Shown in pieces: positions 27,811-34,007 of a stretch of DNA of 64,000 nt. The notes below the pieces were generated by a model. It was given only the letters and a program-made list of their open reading frames with translations. It was not told where the DNA came from and searched no databases. Position 1 is the stretch's first letter, and each line of letters opens with the position of its first letter. The DNA lies in NCBI RefSeq assembly GCF_032116555.1, contig NZ_CP134949.1, positions 1,798,001-1,862,000 of the forward strand. Direction: 5' to 3'. The position numbers and the translations under genes are program-made. The stretch is from Halobaculum sp. XH14. Lineage in GTDB: Archaea; Halobacteriota; Halobacteria; Halobacteriales; Haloferacaceae.

Positions 27811-28974
27811 TCAGCCGACGAGGCCGCTCACGGCACGGGTCAACGCCGCCGCGGCGGTCCGCACCCGGTCCAGTCGCACGTACTCCCGCTCGGCGTGGGC
27901 GACCGCACCCGCCTCGTCCGCGAGGTGGCCGGGGCCGAACACGACCGTCGGCGTGGGTGCGAAGTACGACGCCTCGGTCGCCGCGCCGAACGGCCGGACG
28001 GAGCCGTCTCCGTCCGCGCCGGCGGTCCGTGCTGCGGCCGCGAGCGTCCCGACGAGGTCGTGGTCCGGGTCGGTGTCGAACGCTTCGAGGAACGGCGTCG
28101 GCCGCTCGGTGAACGAGAACTCGACGCCGACCTCGGGGGCGACCGCCTCCCGGACCGCCGAGAGCAACTCAGTTCGGAACCCCGACGTGGTCTCGGGGGG
28201 AACGGACCGCCTGTCCAGCGTGAGTCGCGCCTCCGCGGGCACCTGGTTCGTCGCCTCGCCGCCGTCGACGCCCGTTGCGGTGAGCGTCGGCGAGCCGAGC
28301 CGCGGGTGCGGCTCCCGGCCCTCGTCGAACCGCCGAACCGCGCCCAGCGCGTCCTCCAGCGCGGCGACCGCGTCGACGCCCGACTCCGGTTCGGCCGCGT
28401 GTGCCGCGCTCCCGGAGAGGGTGAGCGTCCCCTCGAACCGGCCGCGTGCGGCCGTGCAGACGTCACAGTCGGTCGGTTCGCCGACGACGAACAGGTCGCC
28501 ATCGAGCGGGTCGAGGGCTGCCGTCCGTTCGTCGTCGCCGTCGCCGTCGTCACCGCCGTCAGCGCCGACCCCGTACTCGCCCGTGACCAGCGCGTGGGCA
28601 CCCGTCGAGAGCGTCTCCTCGTCGGGCGTGATCGCCAGCGTGAGGCGGCCGGCCGACGGCTCGACCGAGAGGAACGCGGCCAGCAACGCCGCCAGCGGTC
28701 CCTTCGCGTCACAGGATCCGCGCCCCCGGAGTACGTCGCCGTCCCGCTCGACCGGCAGTCCCGGCGGGACCGTGTCGACGTGCGTGTTCAACACGACGTG
28801 GGGTTCGCCCACGCCCTTCGTCGCCCGGACGTTCCCGGCGGCGTCGACGACCGGACTCGCGTCGGCCCGGTCGAGCGTCTCGACCAGGAACGAGCGCATC
28901 TCGTCGACGGATCCGTGGGAGTCAATCCGGACGGCCGCGTCCAGAAATTCGACCGGATCGAACGCCGCACTCAC
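27811..28974 (-). CDS. dapE: Succinyl-diaminopimelate desuccinylase-like M20 peptidase
   Basis: A 387-residue M20-family metallohydrolase. Metal ligands are visible in LNTHVDTVPP, RGSCDAKGPLAALL, TPDEETLSTGAHALV and VVGEPTDCD; AAHAAEPESGVDAVAAL is the dimerisation domain. Other M20 enzymes (ArgE, LysK) look alike, but its place as last gene in a dap operon with dapD upstream fixes the role as removing succinate from N-succinyl-LL-diaminopimelate. Its ATG overlaps the dapF stop by 4 nt. An acidic low-complexity loop (DGGDDGDGDDERT) lies near residue 140. Confidence 0.88.
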   Translation of the reverse strand: MSAAFDPVEFLDAAVRIDSHGSVDEMRSFLVETLDRADASPVVDAAGNVRATKGVGEPHVVLNTHVDTVPPGLPVERDGDVLRGRGSCDAKGPLAALLAAFLSVEPSAGRLTLAITPDEETLSTGAHALVTGEYGVGADGGDDGDGDDERTAALDPLDGDLFVVGEPTDCDVCTAARGRFEGTLTLSGSAAHAAEPESGVDAVAALEDALGAVRRFDEGREPHPRLGSPTLTATGVDGGEATNQVPAEARLTLDRRSVPPETTSGFRTELLSAVREAVAPEVGVEFSFTERPTPFLEAFDTDPDHDLVGTLAAAARTAGADGDGSVRPFGAATEASYFAPTPTVVFGPGHLADEAGAVAHAEREYVRLDRVRTAAAALTRAVSGLVG

Positions 28975-29822
28975 GGCTCGGCCTCCAGCGATCCGGTCGC
29001 CTCGCGCTCGGTGGGGCCGGCGAGCGTCGCCGAACCTTCGGCGGGCACCGTAACGCGCAGGTCGCCGCCCGGCGGAGCCACCACCGACGATTCTCGGTCG
29101 GTTCGGCCGGTTCGGCGCGCCGCCGCGAGGATCGCCACCGCGCCGGTCCCGCAGGCGCGCGTCTCGTCCTCGACCCCGCGCTCGAACGTCCGCTGTAGGA
29201 AGTCCGCGCCGCCGTCCGGGGTCGGTTCCGCGAGGGTGACGTTCGCGCCCTCGGGGAACGCGTCGGCGCTCCGAACGGGCGGCGCGACCGCGTCGAGGTC
29301 CACCGCGTCAACGTCCTCGACGAACGCGACCGCGTGCGGGACGCCGGTGTCGACCGCGGTCACGGTCAGCCCCTCGACCGACTCCTCGACCAGCGGTCCG
29401 CCCCACGTCGTCGGAACGGCCGCGGGTTCGAACGTCGGTCTGCCCATCTCGACCTCGACGGCGTTCGTGGCCGTCCGGACGACCGCCCGTCGGTCGCCAG
29501 CGGGCGTCTCGACGACGAACTCCCTCGCACCGGTCCGCTCGCCGGCCCAGGAGGCGACACACCGCGCGCCGTTCCCGCACATCTCCGCGACCGAGCCGTC
29601 GGGCTGGACGAGCGTCATCCCGACGCGAACCGGGACGGCCTCCGGGTTCAGATCGAGGAACAGGACGCCGTCCGCGCCCCGGCGAGCGCCCGCCTCGACA
29701 CCCGTCTCCCGATCACAGTGGACGACGGCGAACCGGACGCGGTCGGGTACCGGTTCGTCGGCGTCGATGACGAGGAAGTCGTTGCCAGTGCCGTGGTACT
29801 TCACGAACGGGACGGTCGTCAT
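28971..29822 (-). CDS. dapF: Diaminopimelate epimerase
   Basis: A 283-residue enzyme interconverting LL- and meso-diaminopimelate. The two catalytic cysteines are C82 in MCGNGARCVASW and about C222 in DETRACGTGAVAIL, the family's mirror-image pair. VKYHGTGNDFLVID is the N-terminal signature. It overlaps lysA upstream and dapE downstream by 4 nt each. Meso-diaminopimelate here serves lysine synthesis only, since haloarchaea have no peptidoglycan. Confidence 0.95.
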   Translation of the reverse strand: MTTVPFVKYHGTGNDFLVIDADEPVPDRVRFAVVHCDRETGVEAGARRGADGVLFLDLNPEAVPVRVGMTLVQPDGSVAEMCGNGARCVASWAGERTGAREFVVETPAGDRRAVVRTATNAVEVEMGRPTFEPAAVPTTWGGPLVEESVEGLTVTAVDTGVPHAVAFVEDVDAVDLDAVAPPVRSADAFPEGANVTLAEPTPDGGADFLQRTFERGVEDETRACGTGAVAILAAARRTGRTDRESSVVAPPGGDLRVTVPAEGSATLAGPTEREATGSLEAEP

Positions 29823-31072
29823 CGTTCCAGCACCGTCAGGTCGGCGAGCGACTCGCGCCGCCTGAGCACGTCACCCTCCGGCGAGACGTCGGCCGGTCTG
29901 GGGCGGGAGTTGTACGTCGACGCCATCTCGTAGCCGTAGGCGCCCGCGTTACCGAGCGCGAGGAGGTCCCCCCGTTCGGGGGCGGGGAGCGGGCGACCCT
30001 CACAGAAGGTGTCGCCGCTCTCGCAGATGGGACCGGCGACCGTCACGGGTCGTTCCTCCCGTTCGTCGGCGCCCGGGTCCAGCAGGCGGATCGCGTGGAA
30101 CGCGTCGTACATCGCCGGCCGAAGCAGGTCGGTCATGCCGGCGTCGACGCCCGCGACGACCTCCCCCGCCGACGGCTTGACTGTGTTCACGCGCGTCACC
30201 AGCACGGCCGCGTCGGCGACGAGATAGCGACCGGGTTCGAGCGCCACGGCCGCATCGAGCGCCGACAGTTCCTCGCGCACCGCCGTCGCGACCGCGTCGA
30301 GGTCGAGCGGGGATTCGGTCTCGCGGTACGGGACGCCGACGCCGCCGCCGACGTTCACGTACTCGAGGTCGCCGACCTCGGCCGCCAGTTCCGCGACGCT
30401 CGCCAGGAACTCGCGGTGGGCAGCCAGATCCGCCTCGTCGTGGATGCCGGAGCCGGCGTGGGCGTGCAGGCCGACGAACTCGAAGTCGGCACGCGCGTCA
30501 GCGACGACCTCGTCGACCCGCTCGGCGGGCACGCCGAACTTCGCCGCCGCCCCGGTCCGCACCTTCTCGTGGTGGCCCGCGCCGACGCCGGGGTTCACTC
30601 GGACGCAGAGTCGGCCGTCGTACCCCCGCTCGCGCAGGCGGTCGAGCGTGTCCGCGGCGCCGACGGTGACCGTCAGATCCGCGCCGTCGCGCCACCAGTC
30701 GACCACGGCGTCGAGGTCACGGGCGGGCGGGTTGACCGCGGTGTAGTCGACGTCGTCGCCGCCGAAGCCGGCCTCCAGCGCGCGACCGACTTCGCCGGCC
30801 GACGCACACTCCGCGCCGAACCCCGCCTCCCGGACGGTTTCGAGGACCGCGCGCCCTGCGTTCGCCTTCACCGCGTACCGGAGCGACGCGTCGGGGAACG
30901 CGGCCCGGAACCGCGCGCAGTTCTGGGCGACGCGGTCGAGGTCGGTGACGTACAGCGGCGTCCCGTGCTCGGCAGCGAGTTCGCGCAGGCGCGCCTCGTT
31001 CCAGTCGGCGAGCCGGCGGGCCCCCGGCGAGCCCGTTCCGTCGGTCGGTTCGTCGGCGTCGGGTTCGCTCAT
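29819..31072 (-). CDS. lysA: Diaminopimelate decarboxylase
   Basis: A 417-residue fold-III PLP enzyme making L-lysine from meso-diaminopimelate. The PLP lysine is K69 in LRYAVKANAGRAVLE. HAHAGSGIHDEADL, VNVGGGVGVPY and the cysteine motif GPICESGDTFCEGR match DapDC, and YEMASTYNSRPRPAD is the C-terminal substrate segment. The start at 31072 overlaps the dapD stop (ATGA); a much longer upstream frame only reads dapD out of frame. The first 20 residues are a low-complexity acidic lead. Confidence 0.94.
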   Translation of the reverse strand: MSEPDADEPTDGTGSPGARRLADWNEARLRELAAEHGTPLYVTDLDRVAQNCARFRAAFPDASLRYAVKANAGRAVLETVREAGFGAECASAGEVGRALEAGFGGDDVDYTAVNPPARDLDAVVDWWRDGADLTVTVGAADTLDRLRERGYDGRLCVRVNPGVGAGHHEKVRTGAAAKFGVPAERVDEVVADARADFEFVGLHAHAGSGIHDEADLAAHREFLASVAELAAEVGDLEYVNVGGGVGVPYRETESPLDLDAVATAVREELSALDAAVALEPGRYLVADAAVLVTRVNTVKPSAGEVVAGVDAGMTDLLRPAMYDAFHAIRLLDPGADEREERPVTVAGPICESGDTFCEGRPLPAPERGDLLALGNAGAYGYEMASTYNSRPRPADVSPEGDVLRRRESLADLTVLER

Positions 31073-31908
31073 TCGCGGAGCGCGTCCTCCCGCCGCGTCG
31101 CCTCCAGCGTCTCCTCTTCGATGTGGGTCGCCACGACGGCCGGCTTGTAGGCCCCGCCCTCGAAGAGGTCGTGCTCGGAGACGCTCGACTCGACGAACCG
31201 CGCGAACGCCCGCCGATCCTCGGGCAGGTGGCCGTAGACGACCTCCTCCTCGACGAGGTCGTACACCGGAATCCTCGGCGTGAGGAGCGTGTTCTCGCCG
31301 ACGACCGAGTTCGCGCCGACGCGGAACCCAGAAGTGACCCGACAGCCCGCGCCCAGTGAGACGCCGTCCTCGACGATCACCGGGGCGTCCTCGACCGGTT
31401 CGAGCACGCCGCCGATCAGCGTGTTCGCGCCGAGCTTCACGCCCTCGCCGAGTTGCGCGCACGAGCCGACCGTGTCACAGGAGTCGACGAGCGTGCCCGC
31501 GCCGACCGACGCGCCGATGTTGACGAACGACGGGCTCATCATGATGGCGTCGTCGCCGAGGTGTGCGCCCCGCCGGAGGACCGTGCCGTCCGGCGTGTTT
31601 CGGGCGCCGCCGGCTTCGAGGCTCTCGGTCTCCCGCAGCGGGAGCACGTCGTAGTAGCCCACGCCGCCGTACTCGCGGCGCTCGGTCTCGCGCAGGCCGA
31701 AGTTGAGCAGGACGCCGCGCTTCACCCACTCGTTCGCCTCCCACGAGGTGACCGAGTCGCCGGTCTTCTCGGCCGCCCGGATTTCGCCGGACTCGAGGGC
31801 GTCGAGGAACGCGTCCAGCGTCGCCCGATCGTCGTCGGTCAGGTCGGACGGCGTCAGGCCGTCGTCGTAGCGGTGCCACAGGTCGTCGATCTCGGGTTCC
31901 AGCGTCAT
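31069..31908 (-). CDS. dapD: Tetrahydrodipicolinate N-succinyltransferase
   Basis: A 279-residue acyltransferase of the left-handed beta-helix fold. It succinylates 2,3,4,5-tetrahydrodipicolinate, so this operon uses the succinylase variant of the DAP pathway. RRGAHLGDDAIMMSPSFVNI, GAGTLVDSCDTVGSCAQLG and GGVLEPVEDAPVIVEDGVSL show the hexapeptide coils and family motifs. The start at 31908 overlaps the dapB stop by 4 nt. The aminotransferase (DapC) that should act next is not in the cluster. Confidence 0.93.
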   Translation of the reverse strand: MTLEPEIDDLWHRYDDGLTPSDLTDDDRATLDAFLDALESGEIRAAEKTGDSVTSWEANEWVKRGVLLNFGLRETERREYGGVGYYDVLPLRETESLEAGGARNTPDGTVLRRGAHLGDDAIMMSPSFVNIGASVGAGTLVDSCDTVGSCAQLGEGVKLGANTLIGGVLEPVEDAPVIVEDGVSLGAGCRVTSGFRVGANSVVGENTLLTPRIPVYDLVEEEVVYGHLPEDRRAFARFVESSVSEHDLFEGGAYKPAVVATHIEEETLEATRREDALRE

Positions 31909-32669
31909 TCGAGTACCTCCGTGAAGTCGTATTCGCCCGCCTCGCGTCCGGCGACCCACGCCGCTGCGTCGAGCGCGCCGGCGGCGAAGATTCGCCGCGA
32001 ACCGGCGCGATGGGTCAGTTCCAGCGTCTCGTCGTCCCCAGCGAGCAGGACCTCGTGTTCGCCGGCGACGTCCCCGGCCCGGCGCGCGTGGACGCCGATC
32101 TCCTCGGGGGAGCGTGGCGCGTCGCCCTCCCGGCCGTGTCGTCGCGCCGTGAGGTCCGGGCGCTCGCGTTCGACGTCCCCGACGAGCGTGAGCGCGGTCC
32201 CGCTCGGCGCGTCCCGCTTGCCGTCGTGGTGCGTCTCCGTCACCTCGACGTCGTACCCGGGAAGCGTTCCGACCGCCTCTCTGACCGCCCCCCGGAGCGC
32301 GGCGATCCCCCGAGAGAAGTTCGACGCGCGGAGCACCGGGACGGTCTCGGCCGCGGCGGTCAGCGCCTCGGCCCCCTCGTCGGTGAACCCGGTGGTTCCG
32401 ACGACGGCCGGGACGCCGGCCTCCGCGCACGCCGAGACGTACTCGACGCTCGACTCGGGGCCGGTGAAGTCGATCAGCGCGTCCGGGTCGCGGTCGGCAA
32501 GCAGTGCGGGGAGGTCGGCCGCGTCGTGAACCTCGCTGCCGGCGACGGGGCCGGTGGCCGAGCGATTGACGGCGAACGCGACCGAGACGTCCTCGCGGTC
32601 GGCCGCCGCCTCGATCAGTTCCCGGCCCATCCGACCGCCCGCGCCCGTCACCGCGACCCGGACGCTCAC
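31905..32669 (-). CDS. dapB: 4-hydroxy-tetrahydrodipicolinate reductase
   Basis: A 254-residue NAD(P)H-dependent reductase. RVAVTGAGGRMGRELIEAA is the nucleotide-binding motif; GVPAVVGTTGF, LRASNFSRGI and the catalytic segment VTETHHDGKRDAPSGTA are diagnostic. It reduces the product of DapA. Start and stop overlap dapA and dapD by 4 nt each. Confidence 0.95.
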   Translation of the reverse strand: MSVRVAVTGAGGRMGRELIEAAADREDVSVAFAVNRSATGPVAGSEVHDAADLPALLADRDPDALIDFTGPESSVEYVSACAEAGVPAVVGTTGFTDEGAEALTAAAETVPVLRASNFSRGIAALRGAVREAVGTLPGYDVEVTETHHDGKRDAPSGTALTLVGDVERERPDLTARRHGREGDAPRSPEEIGVHARRAGDVAGEHEVLLAGDDETLELTHRAGSRRIFAAGALDAAAWVAGREAGEYDFTEVLE

Positions 32670-33589
32670 GCCGTCTCCACCTCCGAACCGTCGGCGTCGG
32701 CCGTCGCCTCCAGGTCGGCGAGGACGTCGGCCAGCACGGCTCGCGTCTCCTCGCTCGCGCGGGTGAGCGGCAGGCGGAGGTCGGCCGGGCCGTAGCCGCG
32801 GATCTCCATCGCCTCCTTCACCGGAATGGGGTTCGTCTCGCGGAACAGTTCGCGGAACAGCGGCGACAGGTCGTGGTGGACGTCGCGGGCGCGCGCAACG
32901 TCCCCGTCGAGCGCCGCGTGGACCAGTTCGGTCGTCCGCTCGGGTTCGACGTTTGCGGCGACGCTGATGGTGCCGGTGCCGCCGACCGCGATGGTCGGAA
33001 GGGTCAGGCCGTCGTCGCCCGAGAGCACGTCGAACGCCTCCCCGCGGGTCCGCTCGACGATCTCCGAGATGCGGTTCAGATCGCCCGAGGCGGCCTTGTA
33101 CCCCCGAACGTTCGGGTGTTCGGCCAGCTCGACGACCGTGTCGAGATCGAGGCTCCGGCCCGTTCGGGAGGGGACGTTGTAGACGACTTGCGGGAGGTCG
33201 ACGGCGTCCGCGACCGCCGTGAAATGTTCGTACTGGCCGCGCGGCTCGGGCTTGTTGTAGTACGGCGAGATGAGCAACAGCGCGTCCGCGCCCGCCGCCG
33301 CGGCGCGCTCGGAGAGGTCGACGGCCTCGTGGGTCGAGTTCGAGCCGGTGCCCGCGACGACGGGCACGTCGACGGCTTCGACGACGGTCTCGACGACCTC
33401 GCCGTGCTCGTCGTGGGTGAGCGTCGCCGACTCGCCCGTGGAGCCGACGGGGACGAGCCCGTCGACGCCGGCGGCTTCGAGCCGTCGGGCGTCGGCGGCG
33501 AGCTGTTCGTGGTCGACGTCGTTGCTGTCCGTGAACGGCGTTGTCATCGCCGGGTAGACGCCGGCGAACGTGTCGTGGTGTGTCGTCAT
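32666..33589 (-). CDS. dapA: 4-hydroxy-tetrahydrodipicolinate synthase
   Basis: A 307-residue class I aldolase condensing pyruvate with aspartate semialdehyde, the first committed step to lysine. GVYPAMTTPFTD, VPVGSTGESATLTHDEH, VVYNVPSRTGRSLD and the Schiff-base lysine in VRGYKAASGDLNRI (about K165) are family marks. It is the first structural gene of a six-gene operon. No promoter lies directly before it; the nearest good TATA is about 215 nt upstream, before a short ORF, so dapA appears to sit behind a leader. Confidence 0.94.
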   Translation of the reverse strand: MTTHHDTFAGVYPAMTTPFTDSNDVDHEQLAADARRLEAAGVDGLVPVGSTGESATLTHDEHGEVVETVVEAVDVPVVAGTGSNSTHEAVDLSERAAAAGADALLLISPYYNKPEPRGQYEHFTAVADAVDLPQVVYNVPSRTGRSLDLDTVVELAEHPNVRGYKAASGDLNRISEIVERTRGEAFDVLSGDDGLTLPTIAVGGTGTISVAANVEPERTTELVHAALDGDVARARDVHHDLSPLFRELFRETNPIPVKEAMEIRGYGPADLRLPLTRASEETRAVLADVLADLEATADADGSEVETA

Positions 33590-33688
33590 TCGTGTGGGTC
33601 GGTGGTGATCGGTCGCAGGGTAGTCGTCAGCGCGCGTCGGTCGTCCGCGGTCGCCCGGGACGGGGGTGCCACTCCCGCCGCGAGCAGG

Positions 33689-33778
33689 TCACGCGCGTTT
33701 GGGTTTCCGACCCGAGAAGGCGGCCGACACGCCGCGCTGGTGGGGAACGGCCCCGGCGCGACGCGACGTGTCTCGCAT
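33689..33778 (-). CDS. Putative 29-residue leader peptide of the lysine operon
   Basis: An ATG at 33778 opens a 29-codon frame ending in TGA at 33689, 99 nt before dapA. It begins MRDTSRRAGAV and ends SGRKPKRA, with two AAA lysine codons next to its stop and seven arginines. Lysine is scarce in haloarchaeal proteins, so a K-P-K near the end of a short peptide before lysine genes is suggestive. A TATA-like CATTAGTAG centres exactly 27 nt before the ATG, as for a leaderless gene. It could be an attenuation-type leader peptide sensing charged tRNA-Lys, or a chance frame in a long leader RNA. Confidence 0.45.
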   Translation of the reverse strand: MRDTSRRAGAVPHQRGVSAAFSGRKPKRA

Positions 33779-33800
33779 GAGTGTACCCCGGTGGTGGGGC

Positions 33801-33809
33801 TACTAATGC
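33801..33809 (-). promoter_or_regulatory. Likely promoter of the dap/lys operon
   Basis: CATTAGTAG on the minus strand is the only AT-rich element near dapA and centres 27 nt before the short ORF at 33778. Transcription from it would give a leader of about 190 nt before dapA, unusually long for this genome. Confidence 0.5.
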
Positions 33810-34007
33810 GTTGCGCCAGCGTCCGATGTTGCTCGTCATCCGAACGTGTCCGGTGTGTCGCATTCGGTCCTGTTCCGGTGTCGCTTTCGAGATCGTCCCC
33901 CATCCAGCGAGAAACCAGCACTCGGAAGGAAAAGATCAGACTCCCAGATCATACCCGCGAACACACCTATAAACCCTTTTACCGAGCCCCCCGTCACACC
34001 AAACGCA

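Follow-up and report, generated by a model that had tools for sequence, protein, structure and literature searches.

A putative ribosome-mediated lysine attenuator upstream of dapA, conserved across haloarchaea

Main finding

Our comparative analysis makes it highly probable that the lysine biosynthesis operon of class Halobacteria is controlled by a conserved ribosome-mediated lysine attenuator, in which a ribosome translating a short leader ORF would govern expression of the downstream genes through the steps proposed below. The initial annotation had read this region as a possible lysine-bearing leader peptide acting through downstream RNA folding. Sequence comparison across the class supports that reading through in-frame AAA codons, their spacing to a hairpin (P2), a second helix (P1), the position of a promoter, and leaders at other amino-acid genes. 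Two features expected of ribosome-mediated attenuation were found: codons for the end product of the operon within a short leader ORF, and RNA structure placed where a stalled ribosome could alter it, as reflected in the start of P1 and in a spacing of 27-32 nt from Lys to the P2 loop.

The lysine locus of Halobaculum sp. XH14

The window is a stretch of 64,000 nucleotides from Halobaculum sp. XH14 (contig NZ_CP134949.1), and all coordinates refer to it unless stated otherwise. Profile matches identify a tight run of genes, dapA-dapB-dapD-lysA-dapF-dapE, whose first member was assigned by TIGR00674 (E = 1e-98). Translation of the window gives the upstream leader peptide as MRDTSRRAGAVPHQRGVSAAFSGRKPKRA, 29 codons followed by the stop TGA, with the tail SGRKPKRA, and a spacer of 99 nt (33688-33590) leads from this stop to the dapA ATG at 33589 (-). 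The ORF, its ending, the gap and dapA were all described in the initial annotation and are confirmed, and its TATA-like box, with AA at -34/-33 and ATTA at -29 to -26 of the leader ATG, fits the class-wide consensus. The features of the locus are as follows, with the evidence for each in brackets.

33804-33815 (-): BRE/TATA promoter element of the leader, with C at -37, AA at -34/-33 and ATTA at -29 to -26 relative to the ATG at 33778 (window sequence and class-wide profile)
33689-33778 (-): leader ORF, 29 codons and stop TGA at 33691-33689, with a predicted leaderless start at 33778 (conservation and frame test)
33698-33706 (-): putative regulatory lysine codons AAA CCC AAA, with AAA at 33706-33704 and 33700-33698 (sequence and codon counts)
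33691-33697 (-): 5' strand of P1, CGCGCGU, directly 3' of the last Lys codon (pairing scores and folding)
33653-33685 (-): hairpin P2 (covariation on 92 sequences, covariance model and dapA linkage)
33685-33681 with 33657-33653 (-): outer helix of P2, GCUCG with CGGGC
33678-33674 with 33664-33660 (-): inner helix of P2, GCGGG with CCCGU
33668-33672 (-): conserved loop of P2, GUGGC
33631-33637 (-): 3' strand of P1, ACGCGCG (pairing scores and folding)
33590-33630 (-): A/C-rich stretch from P1 to dapA, without promoter and without U-tract (sequence)
32666-33589 (-): dapA, 4-hydroxy-tetrahydrodipicolinate synthase, first gene of the operon (TIGR00674)
31905-32669 (-): dapB (TIGR00036)
31069-31905 (-): dapD, start codon provisional (NF008808)
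29819-31075 (-): lysA, start approximate (TIGR01048)
28971-29822 (-): dapF (TIGR00652)
27811-28974 (-): dapE (NF006402)

Farther upstream, a short sequence at 33848-33883 (GTGTCGCATTCGGTCCTG...) is also present at two other sites in the genome (L002 and L003), adjoining long GC-rich repeats. It lies outside the region common to the window and two congeners.

Conservation of the leader ORF

A DNA search revealed that the block at 33649-33700 is conserved in genera otherwise diverged in sequence. We assembled 123 distinct dapA loci from the upstream regions of the family and of named genomes (Halorubrum, Natrinema, Natronorubrum, Haloarcula, Halosimplex, Natronomonas, Haladaptatus, Halorussus and others) and applied a fixed rule, under which a lysine leader is an ORF 20-36 codons long whose last nine codons include two or more Lys. 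The rule was passed by 113 of the 123 loci, which are phylogenetically related and, within a genus, not independent, versus 0 of 360 control windows taken near hisG, trpC, ilvB and pheS. The initial annotation would have been undermined by relatives lacking a conserved short ORF, which is not what these loci show. In genomes with a weak hairpin match or none, 11 further true dapA loci also have a K/R-tailed leader, and two more candidates were discarded as paralogues of about 37% identity rather than dapA. At L315 (G007) and L317 (G033), both with true dapA genes, a lysine leader was not detectable.

Leaders in relatives are about 24-31 codons long and end before the stop in tails such as LLKKRAY, FSKKRA, FSKRKRV, KPKRA and GKRTKRAA; GKRRTADH also occurs. 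Their lysines are encoded by 229 AAA versus 30 AAG codons (88% AAA), whereas the dapA genes themselves use 25 AAA versus 351 AAG (7% AAA). One clade has AAG in its leaders with the frame unchanged, and because its lysines stay in frame, the conserved element is the codon and not merely an A-rich motif. Lysine may not be the sole cue, since an Arg beside it is also strongly conserved. A programmed frameshift at AAAAAAC that would fuse the leader to DapA was rejected, as the codons for KPKR or KRKR in many leaders are non-slippery and the distances from stop to dapA occur in all three frames.

Substitutions in the body of the peptide number 1897, 1575 and 1782 at the first, second and third codon positions, and because there is no third-position excess, the peptide as such appears not to be under selection, which would act only on its lysines, length and frame. 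This bears on two alternatives in which the peptide itself matters. Under the first, its basic K/R tail would arrest the ribosome through the exit tunnel, perhaps sensing free lysine instead of tRNA charging. The conserved Arg after Lys would suit such an arrest peptide, but the tails vary widely (KPKRA, LLKKRAY, KRKRV, GKRRTADH), the body lacks amino-acid constraint, and a peptide signal leaves the strong preference for AAA over AAG unexplained, so that we consider this reading improbable. Still less credible is a conserved small protein with a function of its own that lies upstream of dapA by chance: a conserved leaderless ORF of steady length is compatible with it, but the substitution pattern, the retention of lysines, length and frame only, and the tight spacing to an RNA hairpin all speak against it.

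Promoter, leaderless start and reading frame

Leader starts were picked by A+T content at -30 to -22, and the profile that emerges is a sharp BRE/TATA element that includes C at -37 and AA at -34/-33, positions unused in the picking. A strict BRE/TATA criterion holds for 87 of 121 leader starts, versus 0.27% of background positions and 0 of 121 dapA starts, and on this count a separate dapA promoter was rejected. The initial annotation had observed that dapA has no promoter of its own nearby, which the count bears out. It had also proposed that a start site inside 33590-33690 would tell against the leader; judged by sequence only, that interval has no promoter support.

Since the leader start codon coincides with the transcription start site predicted from the strong BRE/TATA element, the operon mRNA is predicted to be leaderless; the majority of haloarchaeal mRNAs are leaderless (PMC4983044). 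In an independent test of the frame, the hairpin that follows was the sole guide for placing the Lys codons, and the promoter was the sole guide for placing the starts. The start codon fell exactly at the predicted transcription start site in 78 of 93 loci, and the frame from start to Lys was kept and open in 91 of 93, versus one third expected. This frame result is the strongest evidence pointing to translation of the leaderless ORF.

Hairpin P2 and its spacing from the lysine codons

On 92 distinct sequences, 88% of the cells of the P2 alignment are paired and double changes occur in 8 of 11 base pairs. Its covariation score was reached by 0 of 500 shuffles, and versions of the helix slid along the alignment were 37-55% paired. 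A covariance model built on P2 finds matches in 98 of 116 haloarchaeal genomes, usually one strong match in each, and among the best 30 matches all 30 lie upstream of dapA, by 47-158 nt. In 116 of 118 loci the P2 loop lies 27-32 nt from the last Lys codon (29 nt in 66), and the leader stop codon varies in position, at the extremes 23 nt ahead of the loop or within it. For instance, at L080, L089 and L091 the leader reads through to a TAG within the loop, with the same Lys-to-loop spacing.

No Rfam family matches the leader region, either at gathering score or with E up to 1. The lysine riboswitch (L box; E up to 1) and the T-box leader, neither of which gave a covariance-model match, were rejected as candidates. 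The loop itself, GURGC, is nearly invariant class-wide, which suggests a binding partner, because loop bases ought to vary freely yet do not. The resemblance of this loop to a recognition site would fit control of dapA by P2 as a riboswitch or protein-binding element, with the leader peptide irrelevant. We give that reading very little credence: besides the missing Rfam match, an element independent of the ribosome needs neither the frame to Lys, kept in 91 of 93 loci, nor a spacing set from the Lys codon.

In an AT-richer clade (L049, L057, L061, L065), a TTTTT run resembling the U-tract of a terminator follows P2 directly, and the leader lysines are AAG.

Helix P1 and RNA folding

The 5' strand of P1 lies immediately 3' of the last Lys codon, and its partner lies beyond P2. 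Folding gives GCGCACCG/CGGUGCGC in L070 and ACGCGCCC/GGGCGCGU in L038, and further examples are GCACAC/GUGUGC in L054, GUGCGU/ACGCAC in L062, CGUCCGUA/UACGGACG in L032 and CGCCCGU/ACGGGCG in L042. The mean P1 score is 16.4 versus 13.9 +/- 0.26 for dinucleotide shuffles, and 15.6 versus 13.6 +/- 0.36 when only the 57 distinct 5' strands are used. Strands swapped between genomes score 14.3 +/- 0.18 versus 16.3 for the real pairs, and because these swapped sequences still pair well, shared GC-rich sequence may explain part of the P1 signal. A test based on minimum free energy (MFE) gave a weaker result, with 104 loci versus 92 +/- 3.5. Single-sequence folding is not unusually stable and its energies are uninformative, which is why the case presented here is a comparative one.

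Two features of classical attenuators were looked for in these leaders. For pairing between a segment inside the leader and the switch region (1:2 versus 2:3), the score is 18.4 versus 18.2 +/- 0.27 for shuffled sequences, so that classical 1:2 pairing between leader body and P1/P2, as in a four-segment attenuator, was rejected as not above shuffles; the full-leader MFE structure of the window does contain such pairing. Similarly, an intrinsic terminator with a U-tract was rejected because the tract is not conserved: a run of four or more T between P2 and dapA occurs in only 13 of 118 loci.

Proposed mechanism and its output

A ribosome whose A site holds a hungry codon extends about 12-15 nt downstream, and P2 begins about 15-17 nt beyond the Lys codons. 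In our folding models, a ribosome on the Lys codons leaves P2 intact and one on the stop codon opens it partly. P1 would thus be a natural switch, because a ribosome at Lys would cover its 5' strand and leave P2 intact. We propose that when lysyl-tRNA is plentiful, the ribosome would finish the leader and depart, P1 would close over P2, and expression of dapA-B-D-lysA-F-E would be held down. When lysyl-tRNA is scarce, the ribosome would stall at AAA with a footprint that covers the 5' strand of P1 and ends just before P2, P1 would be blocked, and transcription would continue into dapA. The least certain step is the output, for which the likeliest form would be a halt of RNA polymerase at the GC-rich P1/P2 structure.

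The same lysine sensor could instead act on dapA translation or mRNA decay, with P1/P2 limiting 30S loading on an unstructured A/C-rich stretch, for instance, or exposing and hiding a cleavage site. We treat this as a serious but less probable possibility. The U-tract is not conserved, the sequence leading up to dapA is rich in A and C and poor in G, and in the window about 40 nt separate the end of P1 from the dapA AUG, all of which would agree with it. On the other side, the distance from leader to dapA varies from 63 to 269 nt, and in the models the dapA start is equally accessible with or without a ribosome at Lys (differences of at most 0.03). Sequestration of the dapA ribosome-binding site was rejected on that last result. 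An early stop of transcription is modestly preferred over translational control, because in Haloferax 59% of transcripts were stopped in vivo by a hairpin lacking a U-tract (PMC7237163).

Leaders at other amino-acid genes

The same approach revealed leaders with cognate codons at other genes. Upstream of ilvB, 28 of 30 haloarchaeal loci have leaders that end in (I)IVG[A/V] and use the rare codons ATT and GTA, and a hairpin GUAGGGG...CCCC begins at the Val codon; GTA accounts for 35 of 59 Val codons in the leader ends versus 7 of 1310 in the ilvB genes. The leader in the genome of the window (one of L276-L304) is located as follows.

Upstream of ilvB at G000:C1:2138293-2139951 (-): own-genome ilvB leader L303

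Similarly, leaders were found in 20 of 30 pheS loci (L215-L244), most of them ending in GFGFFF and with the pheS match 545-770 nt downstream, and one type of trpS has Trp-cluster leaders (WRWW, WRW or WQWRW) in 8 of 8 loci (L350-L357), with the trpS match about 330-420 nt downstream. Scans upstream of hisG and trpC found no cognate leader, and none with Trp was seen at trpE, a weak negative given that trpE is perhaps not first in its operon. Differential RNA-seq of Haloferax volcanii reports upstream ORFs of 26 aa before pheS and 23 aa before a Trp-tRNA ligase gene, located in long 5'-UTRs (PMC4983044, Table 2).

These findings make it probable, with somewhat less assurance than for the lysine leader, that haloarchaea have a general amino-acid-specific leader-peptide control (Lys-dapA, Ile/Val-ilvB, Phe-pheS and Trp-trpS), which would be the first ribosome-mediated attenuation in Archaea. 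The initial annotation had called peptide-based attenuation poorly documented in archaea, and we likewise found no archaeal case in a search confined to open papers, a result that falls short of proving priority.

If true, ribosome-position sensing arose or spread beyond bacteria, attenuation can operate with leaderless mRNAs and with RNA structures that lack a U-tract, and the position of a ribosome is read out in Archaea while downstream genes are being expressed. Such leaders would provide a natural in vivo assay for archaeal transcription-translation coupling and hairpin termination, and would help explain how haloarchaea tune amino-acid synthesis. Haloferax volcanii, in which dapA is HVO_1101, is genetically tractable, which makes an attenuator directly testable there.

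Comparison with known systems

Leader-peptide attenuation is a textbook bacterial mechanism, represented by the trp, his, thr, ilv, leu and pheST leaders of Enterobacteria, and bacterial lysine operons are usually under a lysine riboswitch. The dapA leader and the L box both belong to the 5' leader region of genes for lysine biosynthesis, but the dapA leader differs in its lack of an Rfam match, its small hairpin and its predicted need of a translated ORF. The upstream ORFs of Haloferax volcanii (Babski et al. 2016, PMC4983044) are short ORFs too, in their case after mapped transcription start sites; in that table dapA is absent and sequences are unprinted, and amino-acid sensing is unproposed. 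Work on hairpin terminators of the same species (Berkemer et al. 2020, PMC7237163) shows that archaeal RNA polymerase can be stopped in vivo by a hairpin lacking a U-tract, although the hairpin tested there originated in a coding region and had no link to a leader peptide.

As in bacterial attenuators, the matching biosynthetic or tRNA-synthetase gene is preceded by a short leader ORF that carries cognate codons close to its end, and helices are placed so that a stalled ribosome would decide which of them forms. Unlike those attenuators, the haloarchaeal leader belongs to an archaeon, is predicted to be initiated without a 5'-UTR, conserves neither a U-tract terminator nor a pairing between leader body and switch, and shows an extreme choice of the rare codon AAA. 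Because two defining features of a trp-type attenuator, a U-tract terminator and leader-internal pairing, were tested and neither was borne out, the dapA leader should not be called one, but it would work in the manner of ribosome-mediated attenuation.
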